Shown here: piece after piece, positions 1,880 to 60,395 of the stretch
Layout of the letters: each line of letters opens with the position of its first letter
Numbering within the stretch: position 1 is the first letter of the stretch
NCBI GenBank assembly: GCA_944324475.1
Contig: CALUWK010000001.1
Location: forward strand, 1-64,000
Source of the DNA: Candidatus Gastranaerophilales bacterium
GTDB lineage: Bacteria > Cyanobacteriota > Vampirovibrionia > Gastranaerophilales > Gastranaerophilaceae
Length of the DNA stretch: 64,000 nucleotides
Direction of reading: 5' to 3'
The notes under the pieces: model-generated
What the model saw: the letters and a program-made list of their open reading frames with translations, nothing else
The model's database searches: none
Told to the model about the DNA's origin: nothing
Translations under genes and position numbers: made by a program

Positions 1880-2218
1880 TTACTTTCTATACCAAGGTTT
1901 AAATTCTTCAATTTCATCAAATAAATTGCAATAATCTCCCTTAAAACAAATACATCTATCATCAATATAAAGATATGAGGATAATTTTGTATTAGTTACA
2001 TCTTTAAAAAATTTATCTAAATTATTATTAATTAGCCATTTTGTTGCAAGCATTAAATTTCTTGATGTAAAAAGATATAATTCAGCTTGTTTTGATAATT
2101 TTTCTATAAATTCATAAGCTCCAATTTTAATTTCAGGAATGTAATTTTCATTGAATTTATCTTTTCCATATTCATTTAATACGCCATCTAAATCTATAAG
2201 TATTTTTTTGGTGAACAT
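1880..2218 (-). CDS. Small HAD-family phosphatase (module 1)
   Basis: 112 residues, a minimal HAD fold. Motif I is IDLDGVL with Asp9 and Asp11, motif II is LFTSR (Thr51/Ser52), a candidate motif III Lys is near residue 78, and motif IV is YIDDR (Asp86/Asp87). All catalytic acidic residues are present, so it is probably an active Mg-dependent phosphatase. Small HADs with the IDDR and C-terminal FKPW pattern resemble phage-type nucleotide or polynucleotide phosphatases; the substrate is unknown. It is transcribed divergently from an HTH regulator across about 58 nt. A copy about 88% identical sits at 58885-59220, and a broken one at 59973-60115. Confidence 0.75.
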   Translation of the reverse strand: MFTKKILIDLDGVLNEYGKDKFNENYIPEIKIGAYEFIEKLSKQAELYLFTSRNLMLATKWLINNNLDKFFKDVTNTKLSSYLYIDDRCICFKGDYCNLFDEIEEFKPWYRK

Positions 2219-2225
2219 AAGCTAT

Positions 2226-2269
2226 TTGTCCGTCTTACAGTTTGTCTATATTGTCATTATAGCGGACAA
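2226..2269. promoter_or_regulatory. Operator/promoter region of HAD-HTH module 1 (TTGTC half-sites)
   Basis: TTGTCCG (2226-2232) is the reverse complement of CGGACAA (2263-2269). Further TTGTC half-sites start at 2242 and 2251. The pair TTGTC (2251) to GACAA (2269) brackets the -10-like TATAGC (2258-2263), which is 13 nt before the regulator ATG. This fits an autoregulatory operator shared by the divergent HAD and HTH genes. TATAGC-13-ATG recurs in module 2. Confidence 0.55.
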
Positions 2270-2276
2270 TTTAATT

Positions 2277-2489
2277 ATGGACAAGGTTTTATTACAAAAA
2301 TTAGCAAACCGTATAAAAGAGTTAAGAAAACTGCACAAATATACTCAAGACGATTTAGCTGATTTAGCCCAAATTGCACGCTCAACCTTGGGTAATATTG
2401 AAACCGCACAAAACGATATAACATTCTCAAAATTAAATAAAATTGCCAAAGCCTTTGATTTATCACTAGCTGAATTTTTAAATTTTTAA
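2277..2489 (+). CDS. Cro/C1-type HTH regulator (module 1)
   Basis: 70 residues, essentially one HTH_XRE domain: IKELRKLHKYTQDDLADLAQ (scaffold and helix 2), then IARSTLGNIE (recognition helix), then ITFSKLNKIAKAFDLSLAEF. The ATG at 2277 is chosen because it fits the family N-terminus; reading further upstream would run into the HAD gene. No Shine-Dalgarno lies in the short leader. It likely represses itself and the divergent HAD gene through the TTGTC sites. Its last 15 codons and 3' flank are identical to those of the regulator at 60183-60395. Confidence 0.8.
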   Translation: MDKVLLQKLANRIKELRKLHKYTQDDLADLAQIARSTLGNIETAQNDITFSKLNKIAKAFDLSLAEFLNF

Positions 2490-2649: not shown

Positions 2650-2823
2650 ATGTTTAAAGTCGAAAAAACGGAAATGACAAATAAAACATTCAGATTACCT
2701 TTAAAATTAGTGCAAGAATTACAAACAATAGCACAAAATAAAGGGGTATCTCTTAATAATTTAGTGCAACAATGTTGCGAGTATGCCATTAAACATTTAG
2801 ATAAAAATACAGATAAACTTTAA
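2650..2823 (+). CDS. Ribbon-helix-helix (Arc/CopG-like) DNA-binding protein
   Basis: 57 residues, with GAGGTG as ribosome site upstream of the ATG at 2650. The N-terminal strand is NKTFRLPLKL. Two helices follow: VQELQTIAQN, then the turn KGVSLNNLVQQCCEYAIKHL. This is the classic Arc/MetJ pattern of strand, helix, GxSLN, helix. Such proteins bind DNA as dimers, often as antitoxins or plasmid regulators. No partner toxin gene follows; the next gene is the SulP transporter. It lies between two HTH-derived sequences, so the patch is rich in small regulators. Confidence 0.7.
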   Translation: MFKVEKTEMTNKTFRLPLKLVQELQTIAQNKGVSLNNLVQQCCEYAIKHLDKNTDKL

Positions 2824-2828
2824 TATAT

Positions 2829-2852: not shown

Positions 2853-4475
2853 ATGGATAAATTATTATTACAAAAATTAGGCAATCATATAAAAAAACTA
2901 AACACAATTAAAGGTGATTTTTTTGGCGGAGTTATTGCAAGTATAATTGCATTTCCGCAAGCTCTTGCTTTTGGTGTAGCATCAGGACTTGGCGCAGTCG
3001 CAGGGGTTTGGGGTGCTATAATTCTATCATTTGTTACAGCTCTTGTGGGTCTAAATTGTCCTGTAATATCAGGGCCGACAGGTCCGAGCGCTATAATTAT
3101 TGCTCATATTTATGCACTTATGAGCGGTGATATTTCAAGCGTGTTTTTGATTTTAGCGTTTAGCGCAATAATTCAGATGATAATATCAATAACTTCAATC
3201 CCATCATTAATAAAATATATCCCATATCCTGTAATATCAGGGTTTTTAAGCGGTATAGGCATAATAATTATAATATTGCAAATTTCTCCGATTTTAGGAG
3301 GTGAAAATTATTCATCAGTATTAATTGCGCTAAAAAATATACCTTTATGTATTCAAAATATTAATTTTGATGCGGTTTTATTGGGTTTTATTTCTCTTTT
3401 GATTGTATTTTTAATTCCAAAGAAAATTTCAAAATATGTCCCATCGCAAATTATAGCCTTGATTTTAGGCAGTTTAATTTGTTATTATTTTAATTTTGAA
3501 GCAGATAAAATTTCTGCTATTACTTTTGAAATTCCAAAATTTGCACTTCATAATTTTAATTTTTCGATTTTATCAAATTCATTAGCAATAGCTTTATCAA
3601 TATCATTCGTTTTAACCTCCGAAAGCCTTTTAACAGGGCTTGTTATGGAATCTTTAGCTAAGAAAAAATATAACCCTAAAAAACTTGTTTTTTCTCAAGG
3701 TTTGGGAAATTTAATTTGTTCATTTTTTGGTGTTATGCAGGGTTCTGCTGCGACTATGAGAAGTGTTGCGGCGTATAAGGCGGGTGCAACTACAAAATTA
3801 AGTGCAATTTTTTCTTCTTTAATATTATTAATTGCCTTATATAAATTTTCTTTTTTGATTTCTCAAATTCCAATATGCACTCTAAGCGCTATTTTAATTA
3901 AAATCGGATATGATATTTTAGATTTAAAAATATTTAAGATAATAAAACACGCACCAAAAGATGATGTTTTAACTTTATGTATAGTTATATTTTTAACTGT
4001 TTTTTATAATTTAATTTTTGCAATTATTACAGGTATCGTTTTAGCTTCAATTCTTTATGCTAAAAGAATAGCCGATAATACAAATATTAAAGAAACATAT
4101 AATCCTGAAGGTTATAGCTTAGATGAAGCAAAAGCAGAAAAAGAATCACACTATAAAATCAGAATTTTACATATAGACGGGCAATTTTTCTTTGGTTCAA
4201 TCAGCCAAATTGTTTCTCATTTTGATGAAATGCTTGGTGTTGAATATATAATTTTAACGTATCCTAATTTTCATAAATTAGATATGTCAGCTATATTTGC
4301 TCTTGAAGATATAATTTTGAGGCTTGATGCGCAAAAGATAAAACTTTGTTTTGTGACTCCTTTTGATGAAATATATAACCAGCTTGAAGCTATTAAAAAA
4401 GAGGGTTTTGATTTGTTGTTATATAAAAATGAACAAGAAGCAATAGATTTTGCACTTGAGAATATTAAAAGTTAG
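2853..4475 (+). CDS. SulP-family anion transporter with STAS domain and HTH-derived N-terminus
   Basis: 540 residues. The membrane domain (about 20-400) has SulP signatures such as GDFFGGVIAS, IAFPQALAFG and SGPTGPSA. A C-terminal cytoplasmic STAS domain (about 425-535) includes LHIDGQFFFG and LDMSAIFAL. The family exchanges or symports inorganic anions (sulfate, bicarbonate) or dicarboxylates; the substrate cannot be read here. The first 17 residues (LLLQKLGNHIKKL) match the N-terminus of the HTH regulators at 2277 and 60183 in protein and DNA, while typical SulP sequence begins only after them. The gene looks like a fusion of a regulator 5' end with a transporter body. Confidence 0.88.
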   Translation: MDKLLLQKLGNHIKKLNTIKGDFFGGVIASIIAFPQALAFGVASGLGAVAGVWGAIILSFVTALVGLNCPVISGPTGPSAIIIAHIYALMSGDISSVFLILAFSAIIQMIISITSIPSLIKYIPYPVISGFLSGIGIIIIILQISPILGGENYSSVLIALKNIPLCIQNINFDAVLLGFISLLIVFLIPKKISKYVPSQIIALILGSLICYYFNFEADKISAITFEIPKFALHNFNFSILSNSLAIALSISFVLTSESLLTGLVMESLAKKKYNPKKLVFSQGLGNLICSFFGVMQGSAATMRSVAAYKAGATTKLSAIFSSLILLIALYKFSFLISQIPICTLSAILIKIGYDILDLKIFKIIKHAPKDDVLTLCIVIFLTVFYNLIFAIITGIVLASILYAKRIADNTNIKETYNPEGYSLDEAKAEKESHYKIRILHIDGQFFFGSISQIVSHFDEMLGVEYIILTYPNFHKLDMSAIFALEDIILRLDAQKIKLCFVTPFDEIYNQLEAIKKEGFDLLLYKNEQEAIDFALENIKS

Positions 4476-58884: not shown

Positions 58885-59220
58885 TTATTTCCAATAAACC
58901 TTAAAATTTTCAATTTCATCAAGTGTTTTATTATAATCTCCCTTAAAACAAATACATCTGTCGTCAATATAAAGATAAGAAGGCAATTTTACGTTGGTTA
59001 TGTCTTTAAAAAATTTATCTAAATCATTTTTTATCAACCATTTAGCTGCAAGCATTAAATTTCTGGTTGTAAAAAGATACAATTCAGCTTGTTTTGATAA
59101 TTTTTCTATAAATTCATAAGCTCCGATTTTAATTTCAGGAATATAGTTTTCATTGAATTTATCTTTTCCATATTCATTCAAAACGCCATCTAAATCTATG
59201 AGTATTTTTTTGGTGAACAT
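58885..59220 (-). CDS. Small HAD-family phosphatase (module 2)
   Basis: 111 residues from the ATG at 59220. Motif I IDLDGVL, motif II LFTTR, motif IV YIDDRCICF. It is about 88% identical to the 1880-2218 protein and differs mainly at the C-terminus (NFKVYWK). Divergent from the HTH gene at 59288, like module 1. All catalytic residues are kept in both intact copies, which argues for selection on enzyme activity. Confidence 0.75.
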   Translation of the reverse strand: MFTKKILIDLDGVLNEYGKDKFNENYIPEIKIGAYEFIEKLSKQAELYLFTTRNLMLAAKWLIKNDLDKFFKDITNVKLPSYLYIDDRCICFKGDYNKTLDEIENFKVYWK

Positions 59221-59235
59221 AAATATTATCCTGTT

Positions 59236-59274
59236 ATTGCTAGTGGTACTAGTTGAAGATATTGCTAGTATAGC
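59236..59274. promoter_or_regulatory. Operator/promoter of module 2 (CTAGT half-sites)
   Basis: ATTGCTAGT occurs twice (59236-59244, 59261-59269). CTAGT-GGT-ACTAG is an inverted repeat at 59240-59252, and GCTA-GTA-TAGC at 59264-59274. The -10-like TATAGC (59269-59274) is 13 nt before the ATG at 59288, as in module 1. The operator words differ from module 1 (TTGTC), so the regulators recognise different DNA. Confidence 0.5.
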
Positions 59275-59287
59275 TAACAATTTAAAA

Positions 59288-59506
59288 ATGAACAAGTCTT
59301 TTTTGGAAAAATTAGCAAAAAGATTAAAATATTTAAGAGAAGAAAGAAAATTAACACAAGATGATCTTGGTGTGAATGGTGTATCAAGATCAATGATTAG
59401 TTTGCTTGAACTTGCAAAAACTGATGTTACAGTTTCTAAACTAAAAATAATTGCTGACAACTTGGGAGTTGAAGTTAAAGATTTGTTTGATTTTAGTGAA
59501 AAATAA
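59288..59506 (+). CDS. Cro/C1-type HTH regulator (module 2)
   Basis: 72 residues. KRLKYLREERKLTQDDLGV, recognition helix GVSRSMISLLELAK, then VTVSKLKIIADNLGVEVKDL. One HTH domain only. The upstream in-frame region reads through the HAD gene and is rejected as coding. The next HTH gene starts 2 nt after its stop. Confidence 0.8.
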   Translation: MNKSFLEKLAKRLKYLREERKLTQDDLGVNGVSRSMISLLELAKTDVTVSKLKIIADNLGVEVKDLFDFSEK

Positions 59507-59508
59507 AT

Positions 59509-59718
59509 ATGAGCCAAGATATTAGACAAATATTAGCAAACAACATAAAAAACCTTAGAACCCAGAAAAAGTTGAAAAGAGAAGAATTATCTTTGATTTT
59601 AGGAGTTGATAATTCTTATATTTCTAAACTTGAGAAAGGTAAAATAAATATCACTTTAGATAAAATTCAATTATTAGCTGATTATTTTGAAATAGAGGCT
59701 TATTTATTGCTAAAATAA
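59509..59718 (+). CDS. Second tandem Cro/C1-type HTH regulator
   Basis: 69 residues. ILANNIKNLRTQKKLKREEL, then GVDNSYISKLEKGKINITL and KIQLLADYFEIEAYLLLK. Like the regulators in restriction-modification and toxin systems, but no such partner lies next to it; its only close partner is the HTH gene 2 nt upstream and the divergent HAD. Confidence 0.82.
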   Translation: MSQDIRQILANNIKNLRTQKKLKREELSLILGVDNSYISKLEKGKINITLDKIQLLADYFEIEAYLLLK

Positions 59719-59771
59719 TTTGTTTGATTTTAAAGATTTATCATTGGATTGGAAGTGAGCCTTGTTAGTTG

Positions 59772-59964
59772 GTAAGATGCTGAAACGCTCAAAGAGAACA
59801 GAAAATCACGCTTGCGCTATTTTCTAGCTAGTTCAGCATGACAAAATATAACAAACCCGTTAATCTGAATTTAAACCTGTCACCCTGAACTCGTTTCAGG
59901 GTCTTAGCAAGTATAGTATCTTAAATAAACATGATAAGATGCTGAAATAAGTTCAGCATGACAG
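59772..59964. repeat. REP-like palindromic intergenic repeats
   Basis: Two copies of the AAGATGCTGAAA ... AGTTCAGCATGACA element: TGCTGAA (59778-59784) with TTCAGCA (59832-59838), holding a nested AGAAAAT/ATTTTCT stem (59800-59806, 59819-59825); and TGCTGAA (59940-59946) with TTCAGCA (59952-59958). Between them CCCTGAA (59883-59889) pairs with TTCAGGG (59895-59901). It fills the gap between the module 2 regulators and the broken HAD. Mobile-repeat type; no transposase in the window. Confidence 0.7.
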
Positions 59965-59972
59965 TAAGAATT

Positions 59973-60115
59973 TTACTTTCTATACCAAGGTTTAAATTTT
60001 TCAATTTCATCAAATAAATTGCAATAATCTCCCTTAAAACATTTTCATTAAATTTATCTTTTTCATATTCATTTAATACGCCGTCTAAATCTATAAGTAT
60101 TTTTTTGGTGAACAT
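59973..60115 (-). pseudogene. Truncated HAD gene (module 3), internal deletion and frameshift
   Basis: Starts like the other HADs (MFTKKILIDLDGVLNEYEKD), then after NEN the DNA jumps to the region matching the 3' end of module 1. About 197 bp corresponding to about 1948-2145 is missing, shifting the frame. Motifs II-IV except the tail are gone, so it cannot work. The stop equivalent is at 59973-59975. A REP-like palindrome lies immediately after it. Confidence 0.85.
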
Positions 60116-60130
60116 AAAATTAACCTTTCT

Positions 60131-60188
60131 ATTTTTGCACGCATGCAAAAAATAATTAAATAATAGCATTAAAATTGCATATATGCAA
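60131..60188. promoter_or_regulatory. Operator/promoter of module 3 (TTGCAT palindromes)
   Basis: Near-palindrome TTTTTGCACGCATGCAAAAA (60132-60151) and the perfect 14-bp palindrome TTGCATATATGCAA (60175-60188). The second overlaps the regulator start codon (ATG 60183-60185), so binding would block initiation directly. The operator word differs from modules 1 and 2. Confidence 0.6.
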
Positions 60189-60395
60189 AGCAATGAATTA
60201 CAAAAACTAGGCAATCATATAAAGAAACTTCGAAAAGAAAGAAAACTAACAATTAGCGCTTTATGCTATAAAAATGGGCTTGAACCTTCTACAATAAGCA
60301 GAATAGAAAAAGGTCAAATAGAACCTAAATATCTTACATTAATGAATATTGCCAAAGCCTTTGATTTATCACTAGCTGAATTTTTAAATTTTTAA
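60183..60395 (+). CDS. Cro/C1-type HTH regulator (module 3)
   Basis: 70 residues. NHIKKLRKERKLTISALCYK, then NGLEPSTISRIEKG and YLTLMNIAKAFDLSLAEF. Its N-terminal codons match the SulP 5' end, and its 3' end matches the module 1 regulator exactly. It still sits divergent from the decayed HAD, so it has lost its partner. No ribosome site; start chosen by family fit. Confidence 0.78.
   Translation: MQSNELQKLGNHIKKLRKERKLTISALCYKNGLEPSTISRIEKGQIEPKYLTLMNIAKAFDLSLAEFLNF

Follow-up and report, generated by a model that had tools for sequence, protein, structure and literature searches.

The window analyzed here is a stretch of 64,000 nt from a Gastranaerophilales MAG of 1.72 Mb in 64 contigs, whose closest relatives are Candidatus Gastranaerophilales MAGs. 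At the first locus, a HAD phosphatase gene (copy 1, 1880..2218, minus strand) encodes a protein of 112 aa with all motifs and was assigned from its ORF, motif conservation in 75 relatives, and the HAD fold. A 58-nt shared promoter/operator with repeated TTGTC/GACAA boxes (type A, 2219..2276) separates it from a divergent gene for a 70-aa HTH_3 regulator (type A, 2277..2489, plus strand; Pfam HTH_3, E = 6e-15). A small RHH-like gene (2651..2824, plus strand) is stacked behind HTH A and is followed by the 5′ start of an additional HTH gene (2853..2900, plus strand), which is fused in frame to a SulP transporter ORF (2853–4475), so that the gene order is HAD, HTH A, RHH-like gene, and HTH remnant fused to SulP. 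A homologue of the RHH-like gene is the only divergent partner of the HAD at another locus (L193), and its RHH/HicB matches were under the curated cut-offs. The first ~15 residues of the SulP ORF come from the HTH protein (MDKLLLQKLGNHIKK), and the fusion apparently occurred via a short A-rich stretch matching the original SulP start, which genomes G010 and G014 still show.

Two further copies were found in the window. Copy 2 (58885..59220, minus strand) encodes a HAD of 111 aa with 86% identity to copy 1, and is divergent from a 72-aa type B HTH_3 regulator (59288..59506, plus strand; Pfam HTH_3, E = 5.5e-9) across a 67-nt type B promoter/operator (59221..59287; TTGCTAGTGGTACTAG...TTGCTAGTATAGCTAAC). 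A type D HTH_3 regulator of 69 aa (59509..59718, plus strand; E = 1e-13) lies immediately behind type B without an operator of its own. Copy 3 (59973..60115, minus strand) is a HAD remnant in which residues ~1–35 and ~90–112 were kept and the middle was deleted; across the 67-nt type C promoter/operator (60116..60182; TTTTTGCACGCATGCAAAAA...TTGCATATATGCAA), its 70-aa type C HTH_3 regulator (60183..60395, plus strand; E = 1.4e-11) is intact despite the broken HAD. All four HTH genes scored above the curated cut-off of Pfam HTH_3 (36–55 bits vs. 23). The preliminary description had placed an intact 112-aa HAD divergent from an HTH gene over 58 nt, a second pair at 58885–59506, and a third with a broken HAD at 59973–60395; its coordinates and motifs held, as did the arrangement of copy 2, but it lacked the second HTH gene behind that copy. 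The MAG carries two more HAD copies on contigs other than that of the window: an intact one with 58% identity and a broken one. Short REP-like repeat clusters (TCATGCTGAACTTGTTTCAGCATC type) lie between copies 2 and 3 (59720–59970) and recur in relatives (e.g., L047, 8124–8880).

Motifs I (DxD), II (T/S), III (K), and IV (DD) of the HAD superfamily were all present in the window HAD, and residues D9, D11, T51, K78, D86, and D87 were kept in 74 or 75 of the 75 relatives. Family matches were weak (PHROG 1238, E = 3e-10; Pfam NIF, E = 1e-3). The AlphaFold model, with a mean pLDDT of 84, was a capless HAD domain that aligned to HAD-fold chains with Z of about 10–12 (maximum 11.7). The fold and motifs I–IV are common to the known capless (C0) HAD phosphatases among its matches, namely MDP-1, SCP1/CTD phosphatases, deoxyribonucleotidases, and BT_0820 (PDB 2obb), with Z of 10–11 against 1u7p, 2obb, 3bwv, and 3l0b and 28% identity to 2obb. 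Unlike these, the window HAD is a capless protein of 112 aa without a sequence-level match at E 0.01 in a PDB profile search. By motifs and modelled fold, it is a capless member of the HAD superfamily with a predicted phosphatase activity; the structural matches were tied in Z and do not discriminate between substrates, and the nucleotide depletion suggested in the preliminary description is one hypothetical role.

The resemblance to phage-type phosphatases that had been noticed earlier proved real but remote. PHROG 1238 (labelled phosphoheptose isomerase) and small phage HADs share motifs with the window HAD, including (Y/V)(I/V)DDR. The small HADs of Leptospira phage LE1, MT837321, and Gordonia phage Nithya were 30–34% identical to it and, unlike it, have no divergent HTH gene; their neighbours are genes for structural proteins or nucleotide metabolism. 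Remote homologues occurred in Leptospira phage LE1, one fecal phage contig, and another family of the phylum, and none had a divergent HTH. On the fecal phage contig, the homologue adjoins what we take, by eye, to be a ThyX-like gene. In the other family (L275, L276, and L277), the remote relatives lie beside genes that by eye are of phage head type and NUDIX type.

The distribution of the HAD was patchy. Within the genus, 24 of 28 genomes contained it, and within the class 176 of 382 did (164 of 319 among good genomes), with up to 12 matches per genome when fragments were counted. Nearly all of the HAD-bearing genomes belong to one family; two genomes of a sister family contain the HAD, and two of their three loci have a divergent HTH, one with two stacked HTHs.

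The comparison covered 115 related genomes, which gave 196 distinct HAD loci. At each locus, the nearest divergent ORF with 55 codons or more was taken as the partner if it lay no more than 260 nt from the HAD. A divergent small regulator was found at 186 loci (95%), with a median spacer of 67 nt, and this recurrence means that the pairing is not due to chance. At the remaining ten loci, there was either no ORF (five) or an ORF not recognizable as DNA-binding (five). In a later locus set, for which predictions had been fixed first, a regulator was present at 21 of 22 loci (14 of the 15 previously unseen ones); the partner in L328 was RHH-like by eye. Thus, the possibility raised at the outset that the HADs mostly stand alone does not apply within Gastranaerophilales, although the remote relatives in phages and the other family are without an HTH partner. 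Conserved divergent pairing, several copies per genome, and differing neighbours together bear out the earlier proposal of a module that is dispersed and is, or once was, mobile. No paper on a HAD/HTH module of this kind was found in the literature searched. Two loci (L113 and L332) have the HAD divergent from an 82-aa ORF without a family match, which is not a known DNA-binding protein.

Clustering at 60% identity gave 54 regulator families. HTH proteins predominate among them and some are RHH-like, and the five most common families together made up about half of the regulators. Among 80 regulator representatives, which include the five ORFs not recognizable as DNA-binding, Pfam HTH_3 alone matched 60, and two were RHH-like with scores below the curated cut-offs. 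Most regulators were 69–75 aa, leaving little besides the DNA-binding domain. The dN/dS of first-position regulators was 0.08. Three more, the regulators of L194, L242, and L254, may have an AbrB-like fold by eye, but gave no Pfam or NCBIfam match and a poor model (pLDDT 58, no PDB match).

The composition of the module bears on whether it is a type II toxin-antitoxin system, in which a HAD toxin would be neutralized by contact with an HTH protein that also autoregulates. Both are small, multicopy, patchy two-gene modules that combine a small effector with a small DNA-binding partner; HTH and RHH proteins are found among known type II antitoxins, one effector can have partners of several folds, and some HADs were pseudogenized while the partner survived. 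However, the genes were divergent in 186 of 186 paired loci rather than arranged in one operon, the partners lack an extra domain, and HADs that are 80–100% identical, or even identical, had unrelated regulators from the 54 families. Since the partners are unrelated and mostly of 69–75 aa, a shared toxin-binding surface is unlikely; the 15% mean column identity over the 80 regulators revealed no conserved toxin-binding part, which does not exclude contact itself. Classic neutralization through protein contact is disfavoured by these comparisons, and we regard a type II system as quite improbable. Because HADs with unrelated partners have the promoter, not a protein interface, in common, the regulator most likely works through repression.

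The exchange of regulators was evident from pairs of related modules. When HADs were 80–99% identical and had the same regulator, the intergenic identity was 0.85, while pairs with different regulators had an intergenic identity of 0.58, compared to 0.56 for shuffled sequences, and yet were 0.86 identical over the first 60 nt of the HAD. These values indicate that regulator and operator were swapped as one cassette, with homology resuming at the HAD start codon. Three 100% identical HADs had different regulators, namely window copy 1 (type A), L047 (type B), and L048 (another type). Conservation of the type A operator was confined to modules whose regulator is also of type A, and strong operator palindromes were found in only a quarter of regulator families. 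A promoter-like TTGTCC-17-TATAAT (10/12, minus strand, 2284–2256) faces the HAD and overlaps the type A operator boxes; promoter matches of this type were no commoner than in shuffles. A minimum count of changes on the HAD tree (106 changes, 52 regulator families) was inflated by the short alignment and was not used. The HTH pairing of the preliminary description stands, but not a single fixed partner; the regulator can be exchanged and brings its own operator along. Retention of the HAD while regulator and operator change appears, from the sequences, to be a previously undescribed feature of the module.

Further regulator genes were stacked behind the first one in 50 of 186 modules, amounting to 64 full-length genes vs. 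15 fragments. The longest stack had five regulators in a row (L032), and the order in G014 was HAD, C, RHH, A, B. A quarter of the full-length stacked genes (16 of 64) begin at most 35 nt after the preceding stop, which means that their own operator was lost. The dN/dS of stacked regulators was 0.09, close to that of first-position regulators and of the HAD (0.09), whose motifs were nearly invariant, consistent with purifying selection. Part of the divergence of stacked regulators is older than stacking, so the low dN/dS makes their continued function likely, not proven.

The low dN/dS of the HAD would also fit an ordinary useful enzyme, and an accessory phosphatase of sugar or nucleotide metabolism, whose local repressors changed neutrally as dispersed copies recombined with one another, would account for the strong purifying selection and for copies that recombine at the HAD. 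Three related loci (L198, L205, and L213) where the HAD is intact but has no regulator beside it also agree with such an enzyme; in L198 and L205, the HAD lies downstream of what by eye is the end of a peroxiredoxin gene. We nevertheless consider this explanation unlikely, given that the regulators have no ligand-binding domain, that about half of the good genomes of the class are without the HAD, that many broken HADs lie next to intact regulators, and that stacked regulators are under selection even though they have no HAD of their own. About 15 broken HADs were still opposite an intact regulator. Regulators outlast HADs, and HADs are seldom without a regulator (10 of 196), an asymmetry that fits an effector that is costly if unregulated and that may be partly due to the greater length of the HAD gene. 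The overall picture suggests, in place of a housekeeping enzyme, a mobile effector under switch control that is probably costly.

DNA past the HAD stop diverged at once between loci, and 351 of 451 neighbour proteins were unrelated to one another. A scan of 107 neighbour proteins returned mostly housekeeping families found once each; it gave no recurrent transposase or integrase (a single TniB-like AAA match) and no recurrent R-M genes (one EcoRI-like pair), and defence genes were few. Terminal or flanking repeats above chance, as expected of transposon ends, were absent at most loci. Direct repeats of 65–88 bp were found around three modules only (L048, 65 bp; L081, 65 bp; L108, 88 bp), and general transposon ends were therefore rejected. 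In L048, the 65-bp repeats duplicate the target sequence that precedes SulP and may thereby record how the module inserts. Flank groups built from DNA matches were also discarded as a count of sites, as the largest group (87) reflects shared stacked regulators and repeats.

The SulP site differed among relatives. It had no module in G010, G014, and G015, a HAD with another HTH and 65-bp direct repeats on both sides in G018, a deleted HAD with the same HTH as G018 in G011, and the HAD with HTH A in the window. The LprI-like (1263–1838) and SulP (2853–4475) genes flank one module in the window and occupy separate module sites in G011 (loci L285, L308, L128, and L129 compared). Recombination between dispersed copies thus seems to rearrange the chromosome.

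Copies within a genome rarely shared a regulator type. At 60% identity, only one of 143 same-genome pairs did so, compared to 12.9 expected from other genomes at matched HAD identity and 5.5–9.1 expected by permutation within HAD clusters (P = 0.0015–0.011). With orthologues removed, the count was 0 of 126, vs. 4.0 expected (P = 0.011). The test on stacked regulators was not significant (1 of 104 vs. 3.2 expected, P = 0.12), and in the later set one of 11 pairs shared a type, against the prediction of none. Both exceptions (G014 and G541, the latter from the later set) are near-identical recent duplicates, showing that the exclusion is not absolute; identical same-genome pairs may also be partly masked by assembly collapse. 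Overall, the evidence that same-genome copies avoid sharing a regulator type is suggestive.

Such avoidance is expected if the module is a phage defence with a regulator that resembles the one carried by an invading element. Operators or repressor of the invader would then interfere with the resident regulator and release the HAD, so that infection stops; a second sensor of the same type in one genome would be useless. The diversity and HTH/RHH composition of the regulators match those of mobile-element repressors, and remote HAD relatives occur in phage genomes. However, when the window HAD, HTH A, HTH D, and operator A were used as queries, viral contigs yielded no close relative: operator A had no match in 2.9 million viral contigs, and HTH A and D had only remote viral relatives. 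A plasmid search with a divergent HAD as query gave no match. PADLOC models did not match HAD copy 1 and gave only marginal partial RT matches for copy 2 (E = 0.006–0.018). The results for operator A and for HTH A and D in viral contigs, the largely housekeeping flanks, and the few defence genes leave a defence of this kind fairly improbable.

We favour, with about even confidence, a dispersed ~0.6-kb repressor/effector module with exchangeable regulator and operator, in which the HAD is costly unless silenced. Beyond the pairing, swapping, stacking, dispersal, and purifying selection observed in the sequences, we infer repression, the harm of an unregulated HAD, and a trigger. The capless HAD phosphatase would be the effector, and the divergent small DNA-binding protein would bind the operator repeats in the shared promoter and silence both the HAD gene and itself. 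Regulator and operator are exchanged jointly without loss of the HAD, and displaced regulators stay downstream. The HAD would be harmful or wasteful when unregulated and released when repression fails, e.g., when the module enters a cell without the matching repressor, or in the presence of an invader that titrates the repressor or takes its place. This logic would be that of a toxin or defence effector guarded at the level of transcription, and the repressor type would be akin to an immunity or incompatibility group. The gain may lie in defence, in addiction-like maintenance, or in a metabolic switch. More tentatively, the modules may form a new class in which one conserved effector is guarded by an open-ended set of exchangeable repressor/operator cassettes. 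Old repressors in the stacks would form a record and go on silencing or sensing elements of the matching type, and a single HAD effector would thereby serve a repertoire of incompatibilities or sensors; we view this as possible but doubtful.

Small repressor/effector modules with related features are known, among which the exchangeable-regulator design is unusual. In restriction-modification (R-M) systems, the operator specificity of controller (C) proteins sets incompatibility groups (PMC3874152). The C proteins are small HTH_3 regulators, as in the HAD module, but the latter has no restriction enzyme or methylase and far more specificities per effector. In phage immunity repressors, such as those of cluster A mycobacteriophages, repressor and operator specificity co-diversify (PMC6550527), whereas the HAD module has no phage genes, is a single 0.6-kb unit, and received unrelated replacement regulators. 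A HAD phosphatase of unknown role is contained in the E. coli defence system DS-9 (PMC13092281). If our reading is true, the variable under selection in a common uncultured gut lineage would be regulator specificity rather than effector chemistry, and the modules would offer a compact natural set of more than 50 repressor/operator pairs linked to the same effector. They would make incompatibility based on repressors testable in chromosomal modules, and would give a phage-related family of tiny HAD phosphatases a first clue to its function.

Type A-like HTH genes (58–63% identity) were also found without a HAD in L296 (G025, 1477–2055) and L297 (G012, 1345–1713). Both have TTGTCCG/CGGACAA operator repeats and adjoin a gene that is clpB-like by eye, and in L296 the HTH gene is divergent from an unknown 93-aa ORF in place of the HAD.
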